Source: a virus. Taken from it: DNA of 54,387 nt. The stretch covers positions 1-54,387 of the IMG/VR virus record IMGVR_UViG_3300028610_002189. One strand, 5' to 3'. Below the pieces are notes generated by a model that searched no databases, had not been told where the DNA came from, and saw only the letters and a list, made by a program, of their open reading frames with translations. The translations under genes and the position numbers were made by a program. Shown here piece after piece: positions 45,832 to 53,084 of this stretch (positions are counted from its first letter, which is position 1; every line of letters starts with the position of its first letter).

Positions 45832-48800
45832 ATGTCTGTAAATTTTGAATATTTACCTGTAGTTCTTGAAGATAAAAAAGTTACTGCTTTGCTCAAACCG
45901 ACAATGTTGCTTGAAGTTATTGAACAATTTACTGAGCAGTTTCCTGAGTATGAGGGGATACTTAGGCAAACTGTTCAGATATTTGTTAACGGTGAGCTTA
46001 TTGCTCCTGAGCGTTGGCATTTATGTATGTTGAATACTGGTGATAGAGTTCTTGTAGTACCAATTATTGGATGTGGTGGTGGTGGAGTTGTTCAGATTGT
46101 TATAGGGGCTGTTCTAATAGCTGTTGGGGTATTAATTCCTGCTGATCCAGGAACAAAGGCATATTTAATTAAAACTGGTCTTATAATGATGGGTGCTTCT
46201 ATGGTTATTAGTGGTGGAATGCAGCTATTATGGCCTATGAAGCTTCCTTCAATACCTAATATATCTGGAAGCTATGCTTCAGAAGATCCTGTTTATCGTT
46301 GGGATGGTAGACAAATTCAGTTTGGTGTTGGTAATAGAATTCCAATAATTTATGGTAAGACCTATGCTGCTCCTCAATGTATAATGCAATATATTGATAC
46401 TTCTGATGATGGTAAAAAGAATTATATAAATCTATTGCTTTGTTTGGGTTATGGGGAGATAGATGGAATATGTATGGAAAATGGTGATCCAGATATTTTA
46501 ATAAATGGTCAACCATTTTCTAATTATGAAAATATAACATGGGATTGGAGACCAGGAACGTGGGCTCAAACTGCTATGGAAGGATTTAGAGATGTTAGAG
46601 TATATTATTCAAGTTCTGCTAAAGTTACAACTAATTTAGATAAAGTATATACTACTTATGCTGATGATGTTGAAGAGTTTTGGGTACATCTACAATGTCC
46701 TTCTTTATATAAAGTAGATGGGGCTAATGTTATTGAAAATAGAGTTGAATTTCATATCTATTATGCTAGAAGAATTAGTACTAGTCCTGATATATATGAG
46801 AGTTATATAAGTTTAGGAGGGTTTGATATTACTGGTAATTCAAAAGCTGCTTTAAATAAGATTGTTAAAAATGCTTCTAATCTTACAGCAGGTAAATATA
46901 GAATAAAGGTTTCTAGAATTTCTGCTGATTATGAAGATGACTTTGAGAATTTTTCAGATTTATATGTTGTTGGATTTACTGAAACTGAATATGATGAAAT
47001 AGCATATCGTGGTTTAGCTTTACTTGGGGTTAAAGCTTTGGCAACTGAGCAGTTAAGTGGAGCAACACCGAATGTTATACCTAAAGTAAGAGGAATTAAA
47101 GTAAAAGTTCCTAAGTTAACATATGTTGGAGATGTTGTTAACTATAATAATTGTTATTGGGATGATGATGCTGGTGTATATAAGAAACTTTCTGATGATT
47201 CCATTGTAGTTGATACTGGTGTATATACTGGAGATACTGAAAAACAATGGGTACAAGATCCTATATGGCAAGCTAATGATTTAAGTGTAAGTACTGCGTA
47301 TGGTCTTGGAAAGTATACTAATAATGCTGATGCTGATCTTGATCAATTAAAACTAGAATCAAGATATGGAAGACGATTGGTTGATGATGGTGAAGGAAAT
47401 CAAGAAATACAATTTCAATGTGATATACAACTTTCTAGACCTCTTAGTGGTAGAGATGCGGTTGCTGAAATATTGAAAACATGTAGAGGATGGGCTTTTT
47501 GGGTAGAGGATAAGATTAAAATGCTTATAGATAGACCGCAAGATCCTGCATATGTTTTTAATGAAGGTAATATAAAAGAAGGTTCTTTGAAGATTAATTT
47601 TATACCTAATAGCAGTATACCCAATGTACTTGATGTTGAATGGGATAATCTTGATGATAATGCTAGTTTAAATAGATTTAGACTTGTTGATCAGGAGGAG
47701 AGAAAAAAGAACAAACCTTTTAAGCCATCTCAATTAGAATTACATGGTGTTATAAGACGTGGTCAAGCAATAAGAGATGGGTGGTTTAATCTTAATTGTA
47801 CTAGGAATAGAGGTAAGATATTACAATTTGATTCTGCTATAAATGCTGTACATTGTACTCCTGGTGCTATTGTAACTGTACAGAATGATATGGCAGGATG
47901 GGGTGATGGTGGCAGGGTAGTTCGTGGAACTTCTGATAGTATAACTCTTGATATTAATATCACTATAGAAGCTAATAAAACATATCGTGTTGGATATATA
48001 TTATCAACTGGTGTTATAGAAAAGAAGACTGTAACTAATTCTGCTGGAACACATAATACTTTGACTATAGATGGTGCTTGGAGCGAAGTTCCTGCTAGAT
48101 ATGGAATATGGATATTTGGTGAGAGAGATGCTGAAGGTAAAGATTTTAGAGTAACAACAATTACTCGTAAGAACATCGGTGAAGTTACTCTAAGTGTGTT
48201 AGAGTATAATAGAACCGTGTATGGACACTATAGTTCTATTGGTAGAGCTGAAGTAATTAGTACTCTTCCTACAAGACATGGTATGGCAGGTGATGTTGAA
48301 AGTTTGCAATTGACTGCTTTGATGATTCAAGTTGGATTTACAATATCTTTTAATATTCCTAAGAATGATTTTTCTTTTTATGATGCTTTCGTTGAGATTA
48401 GCCCAGATGGTGTTTATTATAGACATATATATACAGCTAGTGGTGATGCTAGTTTTGATATTATACAAGATGTTGAGCCATATGGTACTTATTATGTAAG
48501 AGTTTATAGTCGTAATAGAGATGGATTAAAGTCTCTTGTTCCTGTAGAGACTTCAATAACTTTAGATAATTTGAATATTCAACCATTTGTTCCTACGAAA
48601 TTAGAAATAAAAGGGCAAGGTAATGATACTGTTTTTAATAGTAGGAATTGTGAATTTGAATGGACTGAGACTACGCCTCTTGGAGGGGAATTGTTTGAAT
48701 TTGGAGGCGGTAGATTAGGATATGGTGTTGTTGGTTCTACAACACAATCTTATGAAATTGCTATATTGGTTAATGGGGTTGAAATTGGTGATAGGAGATA

Positions 48801-49074
48801 TACAGAGAATACATTTTTTATTTATACCTTAGAACAGAATATTGCTGATAATGGTGGTACTTCTGCTTCGAGTTTTGAGATTAGAGTTTGGTCTATAGAT
48901 AGGTTTGGTAATAGGTCTGCTGCATATGCGAAGCTTGGTGTTAGTAATGGAGTTCCAACTTTGATTGGATTAGCTGCTGTTGCTGAAGAGGATGCTGTTA
49001 GATTTAATTGGGATAAGAATGAAGATACAGATTTGTTAGGGTATAAATATAGATTGCAAATACATGAATATTAG
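45832..49074 (+). CDS. Tail-tip central protein, gpI/gpJ-like fusion, 1080 aa
   Basis: The ATG is coupled to the previous stop. Residues 1-82 look like the beta-grasp of gpI (VNGELIAPERW...GDRVLVVP) ending in GCGGGG; residues 86-135 are a hydrophobic hairpin. From about 150 the sequence follows gpJ-type tip proteins (QIQFGVGNRIPIIYGK, WQANDLSVSTAYGLGKY). The last 300 residues contain FNIII domains. The final FNIII breaks off at ...LGYKYRLQIHEY, and its missing strands seem to appear in the next gene. It is the likely receptor-proximal tip. Confidence 0.8.
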   Translation: MSVNFEYLPVVLEDKKVTALLKPTMLLEVIEQFTEQFPEYEGILRQTVQIFVNGELIAPERWHLCMLNTGDRVLVVPIIGCGGGGVVQIVIGAVLIAVGVLIPADPGTKAYLIKTGLIMMGASMVISGGMQLLWPMKLPSIPNISGSYASEDPVYRWDGRQIQFGVGNRIPIIYGKTYAAPQCIMQYIDTSDDGKKNYINLLLCLGYGEIDGICMENGDPDILINGQPFSNYENITWDWRPGTWAQTAMEGFRDVRVYYSSSAKVTTNLDKVYTTYADDVEEFWVHLQCPSLYKVDGANVIENRVEFHIYYARRISTSPDIYESYISLGGFDITGNSKAALNKIVKNASNLTAGKYRIKVSRISADYEDDFENFSDLYVVGFTETEYDEIAYRGLALLGVKALATEQLSGATPNVIPKVRGIKVKVPKLTYVGDVVNYNNCYWDDDAGVYKKLSDDSIVVDTGVYTGDTEKQWVQDPIWQANDLSVSTAYGLGKYTNNADADLDQLKLESRYGRRLVDDGEGNQEIQFQCDIQLSRPLSGRDAVAEILKTCRGWAFWVEDKIKMLIDRPQDPAYVFNEGNIKEGSLKINFIPNSSIPNVLDVEWDNLDDNASLNRFRLVDQEERKKNKPFKPSQLELHGVIRRGQAIRDGWFNLNCTRNRGKILQFDSAINAVHCTPGAIVTVQNDMAGWGDGGRVVRGTSDSITLDINITIEANKTYRVGYILSTGVIEKKTVTNSAGTHNTLTIDGAWSEVPARYGIWIFGERDAEGKDFRVTTITRKNIGEVTLSVLEYNRTVYGHYSSIGRAEVISTLPTRHGMAGDVESLQLTALMIQVGFTISFNIPKNDFSFYDAFVEISPDGVYYRHIYTASGDASFDIIQDVEPYGTYYVRVYSRNRDGLKSLVPVETSITLDNLNIQPFVPTKLEIKGQGNDTVFNSRNCEFEWTETTPLGGELFEFGGGRLGYGVVGSTTQSYEIAILVNGVEIGDRRYTENTFFIYTLEQNIADNGGTSASSFEIRVWSIDRFGNRSAAYAKLGVSNGVPTLIGLAAVAEEDAVRFNWDKNEDTDLLGYKYRLQIHEY

Positions 49075-49104
49075 TATATAAATAGTATGGAATAGGATAT
49101 TGTT

Positions 49105-51540
49105 ATGCCTGGAAATATCTTTAGTGCTGATTCTACTTCTGATTTAATTTATAAACACTCAGGTTTCACTGATACTATATTAGATAGTTTTAGTAGTCCT
49201 AGTACTATTCCAATAGGACTTACTTGGGATGGTACTAATTTATATAGTAATGATTCTACTTCTGATTTAATTTATAAACACTCAGGTTTCACTGATACAA
49301 TATTAGATAGTTTTAGTAGTCCTAGTACTAGTCCTAGAGATCTTGCTTGGGATGGTGCTAATATATGTAGTGTTGATGGTAATACTAATAAAATCTATCA
49401 ACACTCTGGTTTCACTGATACAATTCTAGATAGTTTTAGTAGTCCTGACTATTCCCCTTCTGGTTTAACTTGGGATGGCAGTAATTTACTCAGTGCTGAT
49501 TACTCCATTCCTGATTTAATATTTAAACACTCTGGTTTCACTGATACAATTCTAGATAGTTTCAATAGTCCTGGCGGGATGACTGAAGGTCTTGCTTGGG
49601 ATGGTGCTAATATATATAATAGTGATAATTGGTTATCTAATAATAAAATCTATCAACACGATGGCTTTACTAATACAATTCTAAACAGTTTTAATAGTCC
49701 TAGTAACAGTCCTAGAGGACTTACTTGGGAAGAAATAAGTTCAAGTTCTTCTTCAAGTGAGAGTTCTTCTTCAAGTTCTAAGAGTAGTTCAAGTTCTTCA
49801 AGTGAGAGTTCTTCTTCAAGCTCTGAGAGTTCTTCTTCAAGTGAGAGTTCTTCTTCAAGCTCTGAGAGTTCTTCTTCAAGCTCTGAGAGTTCTTCTTCAA
49901 GTGAGAGTTCTTCTTCAAGCTCTGAGAGTTCTTCTTCAAGCTCTGAGAGTTCTTCTTCAAGTGAGAGTAGCTCTTCTAGTAGTGGAAGCTCTTCTTCAAG
50001 CTCTAAGAGTTCTTCTTCAAGTGAGAGTTCTTCTTCAAGTGAAAGTTCAAGTTCTTCAAGTGAAAGTTCTTCTTCAAGTAGTGAAAGTTCTTCTTCAAGT
50101 GAAAGTTCTTCTTCTAGTTCTGAGAGTTCTAGTTCTTCTTCTAGTAGTGAAAGCTCTAGTAGTAGTTCTGCTGGATGGACTGATTGGGTTACTATAGAAA
50201 ATAATTCTATAATAAGGAAATTAGATACTGCTGAAATTGCAAAACAAGGTGCTGGTCAGGCAAACATTAATATAGAAGTGAAAGCAGTTGATATGTATGG
50301 TAATGAATCAAGTGTTATTAAAGTAGGTTCAGATTGTCTTAATTATAAGGCCGGATATAATGTTAGTCCTACAGAGGGGGTGGGTCATTTTCAGTACATT
50401 CAAGAAGCCTTAAATGCTATACCTCCTGGAGGAGGTAAATTAACTCTTAAAGAAGGTATATATGATTTGTCTCGTGAAACTGGTATAGCAAATTACAATA
50501 ATGGAATTGTTATTCCAGATAGAAATATTGATATTGAAGGAGTTAATAGGGATTCTGTTATTATTAAAAATAATCCTGGAGATCATGGATTTATATTGCC
50601 TAATTTAACTAAAACTTTTAAATTTTCAAATTTTGCTATTGATAGTCAAAATATATCTTCCTATACAAATATGATATATATTTATGGAAGTGTAGCTTCA
50701 AATAATACTAGTAATGTAAGAACAAGCTCTATGAAATATTCTTTGGCTGATAATGGAGATTTAAGTGCGCCGGATGGAGATTGTGGAATAAGAGCAGATA
50801 AAGGCGATGGAAGAATAGTGGCATATGATTGTGAGCTTGAGAATGGCTTATATGGAGCTCATATATATGATTATCCTTATGTTTTGTTTACTCAGACTGA
50901 GTTGTCAGGACAGTTATATGCTTCTTTATATACAGATTTGTCAGCTGAATTGCATTTTATAAGTAATCGAATATATGATTTTCAGACTTTTGGAATTCTT
51001 TTTATGGGCTTTAATATTATTAGAGATTGTGAATTGCATAACAATGTTATTAAGAGTAAGAATCATAGTACAGATGTTAGTACTACTGCTGTAAACATAG
51101 AAGCCCAATCTGTTAGCTTTCTTAATAATATTATTCAAATTATAAATACAATGTCAAGTGGAGTGCAAAAAGGAGTGTTAATGCGAGTAGTTGATTCTAT
51201 AGTTTCGAATAATATTATTAAGTTAGATGTTGATTCTAGTGATGAGTTATATGGATTATATGTAAATGATTTAATAGATAGTCAAGTTTGTAACAATACT
51301 GTAAAAGTAGATGGAAGTAATAATACTAGTAACCATTACGGTATGCGCTTACAGGATTCAGATCGTAATGTGCTACAAGGTAACAATATAGATTTGGTAA
51401 GTAATAATGTTAAGGATATTGGTGTTTATCTTAGTACTAATTCTGATAATAATCAAGGTGGAGATAATATTACTCATAATGTTGGAACCTCTATAGATGA
51501 TAATGGTATTGGAAATGTTGTGACAGCGAAGGATGTGTAA
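49105..51540 (+). CDS. Tail spike: beta-propeller repeats, Ser-rich linker, half FNIII, beta-helix, 811 aa
   Basis: The ATG follows AGGATATTGTT. Five repeats of about 41 residues (LIYKHSGFTDTILDSFSSP...GLTWDG) span 1-210, likely propeller blades. Residues 211-355 are nearly all Ser with Glu or Lys. Residues 356-410 (GWTDWVTIENNS...VKAVDMYGNESS) are the C-terminal strands of an FNIII domain. From 420 (FQYIQEALNAIPPGGGKLTLKEG) onward a pectate-lyase-type right-handed beta-helix follows. This is typical of receptor-binding polysaccharide depolymerase spikes; catalytic residues cannot be assigned. Confidence 0.7.
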   Translation: MPGNIFSADSTSDLIYKHSGFTDTILDSFSSPSTIPIGLTWDGTNLYSNDSTSDLIYKHSGFTDTILDSFSSPSTSPRDLAWDGANICSVDGNTNKIYQHSGFTDTILDSFSSPDYSPSGLTWDGSNLLSADYSIPDLIFKHSGFTDTILDSFNSPGGMTEGLAWDGANIYNSDNWLSNNKIYQHDGFTNTILNSFNSPSNSPRGLTWEEISSSSSSSESSSSSSKSSSSSSSESSSSSSESSSSSESSSSSSESSSSSSESSSSSESSSSSSESSSSSSESSSSSESSSSSSGSSSSSSKSSSSSESSSSSESSSSSSESSSSSSESSSSSESSSSSSESSSSSSSSESSSSSSAGWTDWVTIENNSIIRKLDTAEIAKQGAGQANINIEVKAVDMYGNESSVIKVGSDCLNYKAGYNVSPTEGVGHFQYIQEALNAIPPGGGKLTLKEGIYDLSRETGIANYNNGIVIPDRNIDIEGVNRDSVIIKNNPGDHGFILPNLTKTFKFSNFAIDSQNISSYTNMIYIYGSVASNNTSNVRTSSMKYSLADNGDLSAPDGDCGIRADKGDGRIVAYDCELENGLYGAHIYDYPYVLFTQTELSGQLYASLYTDLSAELHFISNRIYDFQTFGILFMGFNIIRDCELHNNVIKSKNHSTDVSTTAVNIEAQSVSFLNNIIQIINTMSSGVQKGVLMRVVDSIVSNNIIKLDVDSSDELYGLYVNDLIDSQVCNNTVKVDGSNNTSNHYGMRLQDSDRNVLQGNNIDLVSNNVKDIGVYLSTNSDNNQGGDNITHNVGTSIDDNGIGNVVTAKDV
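49114..49737 (+). repeat. Five tandem repeats of about 125 bp (propeller blades)
   Basis: DNA units of about 123-130 bp, best conserved over the part encoding KHSGFTDTILDSF, lie in tandem. The first two units are nearly identical, which suggests recent duplication or recombination. Confidence 0.8.
49738..50169 (+). repeat. Ser-codon low-complexity tandem repeat
   Basis: This 432-bp block repeats AGTTCTTCTTCAAGCTCTGAG-like units encoding SSSSSE, with length variation between units. Ser codons of several types are mixed, so the peptide is likely selected. Such tracts change length easily. Confidence 0.85.
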
Positions 51541-51977: not shown

Positions 51978-53084
51978 ATGTCTCAATATGGACCTGGAAC
52001 ATTATTAACAGTAGATACTACACAAGGAGAAACTTTATTAACTTTTAGTAGTGAGTGTTTATTACTTACTGAAGTCAATAGAGGTGATTGGTTTACTATT
52101 GATGATGATACTTCACCTACTTTTGAATTACAAGCTCCACTTACTAATATAACAGCACATTTGACTGCTGCGTGGAGTGGTAACAGCGAATCTGGAGCTA
52201 GTTTTGTTATAAGTAGGGATTTCACCTCACGTAAAAATTATCCTATATTTAGACAGGGCGATAAGCGTGTTGCAAAGAATCTTGCTAGACTTGTTAGTGC
52301 CATTGATGATGATATGTCTACTGTTGGAACTGTAAGTGCTGATACAACTACTAATAATGTGTCTAATTATGATTTAGTCTATTATTCTGCTGCTAATAAT
52401 GTAGTTGATGAAGCTGATGCTACTGATTTAACAAAACCAGCAATAGCTGTTGTTTCTAGATCTGGTTTTGTTAAGCAAGCAGGTCAGGCTACTATTAATA
52501 TAGAAAGTGGTATTGCAATATCTAGATTGGATAAATTGTATCTTTCTACATCTGCTGGTAAAATAACTAATATATGTCCAACTGGAGGAGCTAATAGAAA
52601 ACAACTTGTTGGGATAGCTGTGGAAGATGGCAGTGTTGTTGGAGGTACTGTAGGGGCTGTTTTATTGATAGATTGTGGAAAGTTTACTTCTCCTAATAAG
52701 TTAGAAGCTATAACTACACATGATCAATCTGGTGAAAGTTCTGTTACGGTTCTTACAATAGGAATACCTACTGTTGGTTCGTTTATAAATGGTATGGTAA
52801 AAATTGGTACTAAAAATAAGGTCAACCCCGTATATGCTTTATGTAGAAATTATTCTATTCATATTTATAAAGAGAATAGTACTACTTTTCAATGTCAATT
52901 TGATGGGCTTGGTACTGAGTGCCAAGGAAGTGGAGGTAATGCTGTTGATAGTATATCTATTGATGATACTAGCTCAGATGATTATGTATATATTAAGGCT
53001 GTTCCTTCTGATACAACTGCTGGAATTGAAGGATATGTGTCTTTTAATGGTAGTTCTAACAAAGCTGATATAACAATATCTTAG
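51978..53084 (+). CDS. Fibre-like virion protein, 368 aa
   Basis: The ATG has AGAGGTGTATT upstream. The protein is beta-rich, with a short helical segment (KRVAKNLARLVSAIDDDM, 97-114) that could trimerise, and many Thr/Ser/Gly residues. It is probably a tail fibre or tip-associated protein. The last third, with IHIYKENSTTFQCQFDG, may be a separate beta-domain. Confidence 0.55.
   Translation: MSQYGPGTLLTVDTTQGETLLTFSSECLLLTEVNRGDWFTIDDDTSPTFELQAPLTNITAHLTAAWSGNSESGASFVISRDFTSRKNYPIFRQGDKRVAKNLARLVSAIDDDMSTVGTVSADTTTNNVSNYDLVYYSAANNVVDEADATDLTKPAIAVVSRSGFVKQAGQATINIESGIAISRLDKLYLSTSAGKITNICPTGGANRKQLVGIAVEDGSVVGGTVGAVLLIDCGKFTSPNKLEAITTHDQSGESSVTVLTIGIPTVGSFINGMVKIGTKNKVNPVYALCRNYSIHIYKENSTTFQCQFDGLGTECQGSGGNAVDSISIDDTSSDDYVYIKAVPSDTTAGIEGYVSFNGSSNKADITIS

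Follow-up and report, generated by a model that had tools for sequence, protein, structure and literature searches.

The closest described systems are the tail tips of phages lambda and T5 and an engineered FNIII domain. In lambda, the FNIII domains and the fibre of the tip protein gpJ reside on a single chain (PMC10721106), whereas in T5 the hub (pb3) and the central fibre (pb4) are separate proteins that are joined through FNIII domains (PMC10038345). The break in T5 falls between whole FNIII domains, two of which are on pb3 and three on pb4, and this pair offers an earlier example of a tip divided where one domain ends and the next begins. Complementation between fragments of a single FNIII domain has reportedly been described by Dutta et al. 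in 2005. In a split monobody, an FNIII domain was cut in its CD loop (residues 4-45 and 46-98); on mixing, the two peptides form the domain again and recognise the target, the thermal stability falling from about 78 degrees C to about 45 degrees C (PMC11666773). Because so much stability was lost, docking via a split domain can be expected to have a cost.

The window analyzed here, i.e. the whole stretch of 54,387 nt of one viral record in IMG/VR (54 kb, 34% G+C) from an uncultured phage, contains genes for a terminase, a Mu-type portal, a protease, a major capsid protein and a tape measure protein of 2439 aa, and further tail genes are arranged in the order DUF2460, minor tail L, NlpC/P60 and tip. 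This order (tape measure, minor tail proteins, NlpC/P60, tip) is that of lambda, and the tip also shares the hub core and the FNIII domains behind the hub with the gpJ/TipJ proteins (phrog_31, PF13550, NF040662). In gpJ the fibre is on the same chain, but in the window the chain breaks inside the third FNIII domain and the spike is encoded by the next gene. The locus resembles T5 in that the hub and the fibre, here a beta-helix spike, are separate proteins, but its break lies inside one domain, and it has a propeller and a Ser linker, neither of which is described for pb3 or pb4. With the split monobody it shares a CD-loop cut yielding two chains that would be able to refold together; the monobody was engineered in the laboratory, whereas the split in the window is natural and the association of its chains is inferred. 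A narrow and partial literature search did not yield a paper on a natural FNIII split of this kind. The best overall explanation, to which we assign a probability of about 0.7, is that a propeller-polySer unit was inserted into the third FNIII domain of a gpJ-like gene and that the two halves of this domain dock again. The positions of the features are given in Table 1.

Table 1. Features of the tip-spike region, in window coordinates.
Feature	Position	Strand	Details and evidence
Tail-tip gene	45832..49074	+	1080 aa; phrog_31 6e-112, phrog_32 (tail assembly protein) 3e-18; PF13550, ThiS; PDB gpJ/gpI relatives
FNIII domain 2 of tip, complete	48583..48945	+	aa 918-1038; aligned with L010/L011/L012/L083 J proteins
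Split FNIII, first half (putative strands A-B-C)	48946..49071	+	aa 1039-1080; profile positions 3-19 only; relatives continue beyond
Two in-frame TAG stops between ORFs	49072..49095 (49072-49074, 49093-49095)	+	
Spike SD-like AGGA (49094-49097), 7 nt, ATG (49105)	49094..49107	+	sequence; homologue starts
Spike gene	49105..51540	+	811 aa: propeller, poly-Ser, FNIII second half, beta-helix
Predicted five-repeat beta-propeller	49105..49737	+	~41-aa (123-129 nt) repeats, family D2; AlphaFold; Foldseek
Poly-Ser linker	49738..50172	+	~145 mostly-Ser residues; 18/21-nt repeats; Ser codon counts
Split FNIII, second half (putative C'/D-E-F-G strands)	50173..50340	+	fills the J FNIII profile together with first half; resembles FNIII 2 of tip; low confidence folded without first half
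Predicted right-handed beta-helix spike domain	50341..51537	+	L006 (37%), L007 (31%); AlphaFold; Foldseek
Small gene after helix	51540..51959	+	tblastn to L006: 37.6% over 141 aa, 5e-21

The tip protein starts with a gpI/ThiS-like part and a gpJ-like hub, continues with two complete FNIII domains and the initial half of another, and ends in ...NGVPTLIGLAAVAEEDAVRFNWDKNEDTDLLGYKYRLQIHEY*. Besides its phrog_31 match, it scores 28.9 bits with the hub core family PF13550, above the cut-off of 23. Its score with the NCBIfam TipJ-related family NF040662 (99 bits) is below the cut-off of 140, and it is only a distant relative of that family. Its first part (45832-46422) gives it the appearance of an I-J fusion, in which a gpI/ThiS-like domain is joined to a gpJ-like hub. 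The genes for gpI and gpJ are separate in lambda and in the compared Rhizobium phages, and gpJ itself, unlike the window tip, has no gpI-like domain fused at its N-terminus. The junction between tip and spike is also present in a second IMG/VR record (18,205 nt) with 100% identity, and misassembly of a single contig is therefore an unlikely cause; the two records possibly come from the same sampling series. Apart from this identical contig, no close relatives of the tip protein were found in the viral and genome collections, and the split arrangement is known from a single phage lineage represented by two identical contigs.

The initial annotation had proposed that one FNIII domain is shared by the two genes. 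We analyzed this with a profile of 67 positions, which was built from seven FNIII domains of J proteins and grown to 130 domains, excluding the window sequence. The J relatives, 79 in number, were retrieved from IMG/VR with an alignment of the tip and one distant J protein; one that combined five J proteins proved too heterogeneous for scanning. When joined, the two halves align with positions 3-65 of the profile, without overlapping or leaving a long gap where they meet, while the tip part alone covers positions 3-19 and the spike part alone positions 51-65; each half therefore fills only its own end, and neither chain carries a complete domain. The joined-domain score, 16.1 bits, is modest; joining 200 shuffled versions of the second half to the tip half gave a mean of 5.4 bits and a maximum of 10.8. 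The assignment as FNIII rests on this J-specific profile, since Pfam FN3 matched neither the joined peptide nor either half at E<=10. The second half begins with GWTDWV at nt 50173 (spike aa 357), exactly where the initial annotation had placed it, as it had the end of the tip gene (49074). In addition, this spike segment has a 39-aa ungapped match to the last strands of tip FNIII 2 with a score of 46, which is reached by 0.2% of shuffled sequences (mean 24.5, sd 4.4).

In J proteins of other phages the domain is uninterrupted at this position, which supports the suggestion of a once continuous gene. In five of them (L086, L059, L105, L083 and L040) the domain extends dozens of residues beyond the point where the tip stops, and the same applies to the Rhizobium phage J proteins L010-L012. 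None of the 81 J proteins with a recognisable FNIII domain ends inside it. Only two, L089 and L039, have an FNIII domain within 15 residues of their end, and these are whole domains because their matches reach positions 67 and 65 of 67, respectively. Neither of the two observations that would have spoken against a split, a last FNIII domain that is complete within the tip protein or a two-gene layout in relatives, was made. A search of phage genomes with the joined peptide gave a single weak continuous match, to the J protein of Rhizobium phage L338C (E = 4). Judged from the alignment, from which the strand names are also taken, the break appears to fall in the CD loop, with strand C before it and strand D (C') after it.

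The spike gene starts with the propeller. AlphaFold predicted 20 strands in five repeats, mostly with a pLDDT above 90, and Foldseek matched the model to many propellers in the PDB with a probability of 1.00; the model thus has the repeated four-stranded blades of a beta-propeller, with a presumably closed ring. The DNA of the Ser linker (49743-50177) is built of successive repeats of 18 and 21 nt, and its length may therefore differ between isolates by slippage. Relatives of the propeller were found on 32 other viral contigs and on one contig of a bacterial MAG (L118), where the propeller is often a gene of its own or the start of a gene. In at least a dozen of them it opens the gene at the residue that matches the spike start, mostly with M-A/G/P-N-x-x-S-x-D, and on L016 four such genes lie close together. 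A Ser/Thr-rich run follows the propeller in L003, L118, L126, L128 and L129, and such runs are located between or before propellers in L018, L121, L122 and L125; in L022 the propeller forms the C-terminus of a fibre-like protein, and other positions occur elsewhere. Nine propeller genes or contigs (L003, L016, L017, L018, L019, L023, L126, L128 and L129) are ~37-57% identical to the window propeller and mostly have the same start and in many cases a Ser/Thr linker of the same type. They stand alone or are modules of other genes and, unlike the window gene, none is accompanied by a J-type FNIII domain; such a domain was not detected in or near the propeller gene in any of the 28 propeller loci scanned.

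These comparisons argue that the propeller/Ser unit is an exchangeable module, usually with its own start, and insertion of such a module fits the arrangement in the window. A search for the propeller-Ser cassette in unrelated genes, which had been proposed as a check, indeed found it in genes of uncultured phages. The idea that the cassette is exchangeable or mobile was supported for the first property, by the own start and the occurrence in unrelated phage genes. For mobility it was not: there are no terminal repeats or target duplications at the junctions, the insert encodes the propeller and the Ser linker only, with no recombinase or endonuclease, and it lacks the hallmarks of a mobile genetic element. 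Nor did we find recombination scars at the insert, and its composition and codon usage do not differ from those of the remaining genome. Across the end of the tip gene, an imperfect tandem repeat of 34 nt (49016-49084, 71%) was considered as an insertion scar and was discarded as too weak in AT-rich DNA. Evidence for a role in host range was not found either, and mobility and host range are offered as suggestions.

Most of the beta-helix that follows the FNIII segment was modelled with a pLDDT of ~80-94. The model has the right-handed beta-helix fold of tailspikes; Foldseek matched it to the alginate epimerases AlgE4 and AlgE6 and to the tailspikes of Sf6, P22 and CBA120 at 10-15% identity, and because identity is this low no enzymatic activity can be claimed. 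Sequence relatives were found only in L006 and L007, where the helix forms the C-terminal part of a tail protein that is unrelated in its other parts; in L006 the helix-bearing gene is also followed by a relative of the small gene behind the spike gene (Table 1). On these grounds the helix probably belongs on a tip protein, being normally part of a tail protein as it would have been before the split.

We propose the following sequence of events. The ancestor would have been a gpJ-like tip gene, an I-J fusion with three FNIII domains followed by the beta-helix spike. The CD loop of the third FNIII domain would then have received the 5' portion of a propeller-polySer gene, complete with that gene's ribosome-binding site and ATG, so that the tip now stops at a TAG after strand C and the spike consists of propeller, Ser linker, remaining FNIII strands and helix. 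The two would be made as separate proteins, and strands A-B-C of the tip would pair with strands D-E-F-G of the spike to rebuild the FNIII domain non-covalently, thereby anchoring the helix to the tip, with the propeller and Ser arm extending from the junction and adding a further module to the surface. We regard the insertion itself as highly probable: the frame is shared across the insert, the domain is continuous in relatives, and propeller homologues start at the spike ATG. The initial annotation's account of a cassette entering a continuous gpJ-like gene stands as far as the split domain, the continuous relatives and the own start are concerned; terminal repeats at the junctions and an empty-site relative were not found, the viral and genome collections scanned containing no uninterrupted relative alignable at the DNA level. 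Docking of tip and spike by fragment complementation, argued by analogy, may be judged at close to even odds. A natural split FNIII domain, in which two virion proteins are held together by one shared domain that arose by propeller-polySer insertion in its CD loop, is proposed somewhat more tentatively.

The halves might instead be functionless leftovers, with the virion assembled through other contacts (e.g. a trimeric beta-helix and FNIII 2) or with the spike located off the tip. We consider this unlikely, though it is the strongest of the alternatives. AlphaFold gave both halves low confidence, with pLDDT mostly below 60 in the read-through translation and ~30-37 for the second half when modelled with the helix alone, which would suit leftovers; this says little either way, because neither alignment contained J sequences over the FNIII halves. 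The occurrence in a single lineage, which gives no handle on selection, is likewise compatible with leftovers. Against this explanation, ends released from constraint should degenerate, yet residues of the FNIII core (W, Y, the AVDMYGNES motif) are retained in both halves, and neither contains internal stops or frameshifts.

Independent truncations are a less probable origin. The spike would have arisen at another site by fusion of a propeller-Ser gene with the C-terminal part of a different J protein, and the tip would have lost its FNIII end and helix separately; the complementarity of the halves would then be a coincidence or reflect the CD loop being a common recombination point. The high mosaicism of phage tail genes, the attachment of the helix module to another tail protein in L006/L007 and the missing empty-site relative are compatible with such a history, but it needs two events with matching cut points, frame and adjacency, and the joined halves follow on from one another in the profile.

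The tip and spike ORFs are in one reading frame, kept across ~1.1 kb and interrupted by just two TAG codons. This configuration could also permit programmed read-through of both stops, by which some copies would become a ~1,900-aa fusion with a covalent FNIII domain carrying a large loop insertion. Such read-through is very improbable. TAG also terminates the portal gene and several other genes of this genome and is therefore a real stop, and its reassignment was rejected. Moreover, there are two tandem stops, no stimulatory RNA fold was detected at them (z = 0.9), and the spike has its own SD and a start that coincides with the conserved start (mostly M-A/G/P-N) of freestanding propeller genes. 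For these reasons, tip and spike are most likely translated separately. Excision of the insert from the RNA, as its size (~1.1 kb) and preserved frame could suggest for an intron, can be dismissed: Rfam yielded no match to an intron, be it of group I/II or of another kind, and the insert encodes a well-formed propeller with homologues that are genes in their own right.

If the proposed insertion is correct, it would illustrate a route from one-gene tail fibres to multi-protein tips in which a surface module is gained in one step, the split tip being a plausible intermediate between lambda-type (one chain) and T5-type (separate hub and fibre) tips. The arrangement further suggests that a structural domain of the virion can tolerate an inserted gene that has a start of its own, provided that the halves still co-fold.

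The analysis also exposes a module of propeller and Ser/Thr linker that is widespread in uncultured phages and gave no convincing PHROGs or Pfam match. Five-repeat propeller proteins are encoded in L016 (3058-6575), L121 (1800-10763), L128, L018, L126 and L129, and many linkers in the family are long Ser/Thr and sometimes Ser/Cys runs; the L121 ORF of 2988 aa contains many propellers and a Ser/Thr run of more than 400 residues. The freestanding propeller genes of L003, L016, L017 and L023 sit among glycosyltransferase genes, neighbours which suggest that the Ser/Thr arms may be glycosylated, and a pyruvyltransferase gene is also present near those of L016. Adjoining the propeller genes on the latter phage contig is a gene (L016, 1714-3048) whose first ~110 residues match the catalytic domain of class I (Glu/Gln) tRNA synthetases. 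Finally, the first 120 residues encoded by the window gene at 51978-53084 are 47% identical to a gene near the L018 propeller (L018, 47-400).
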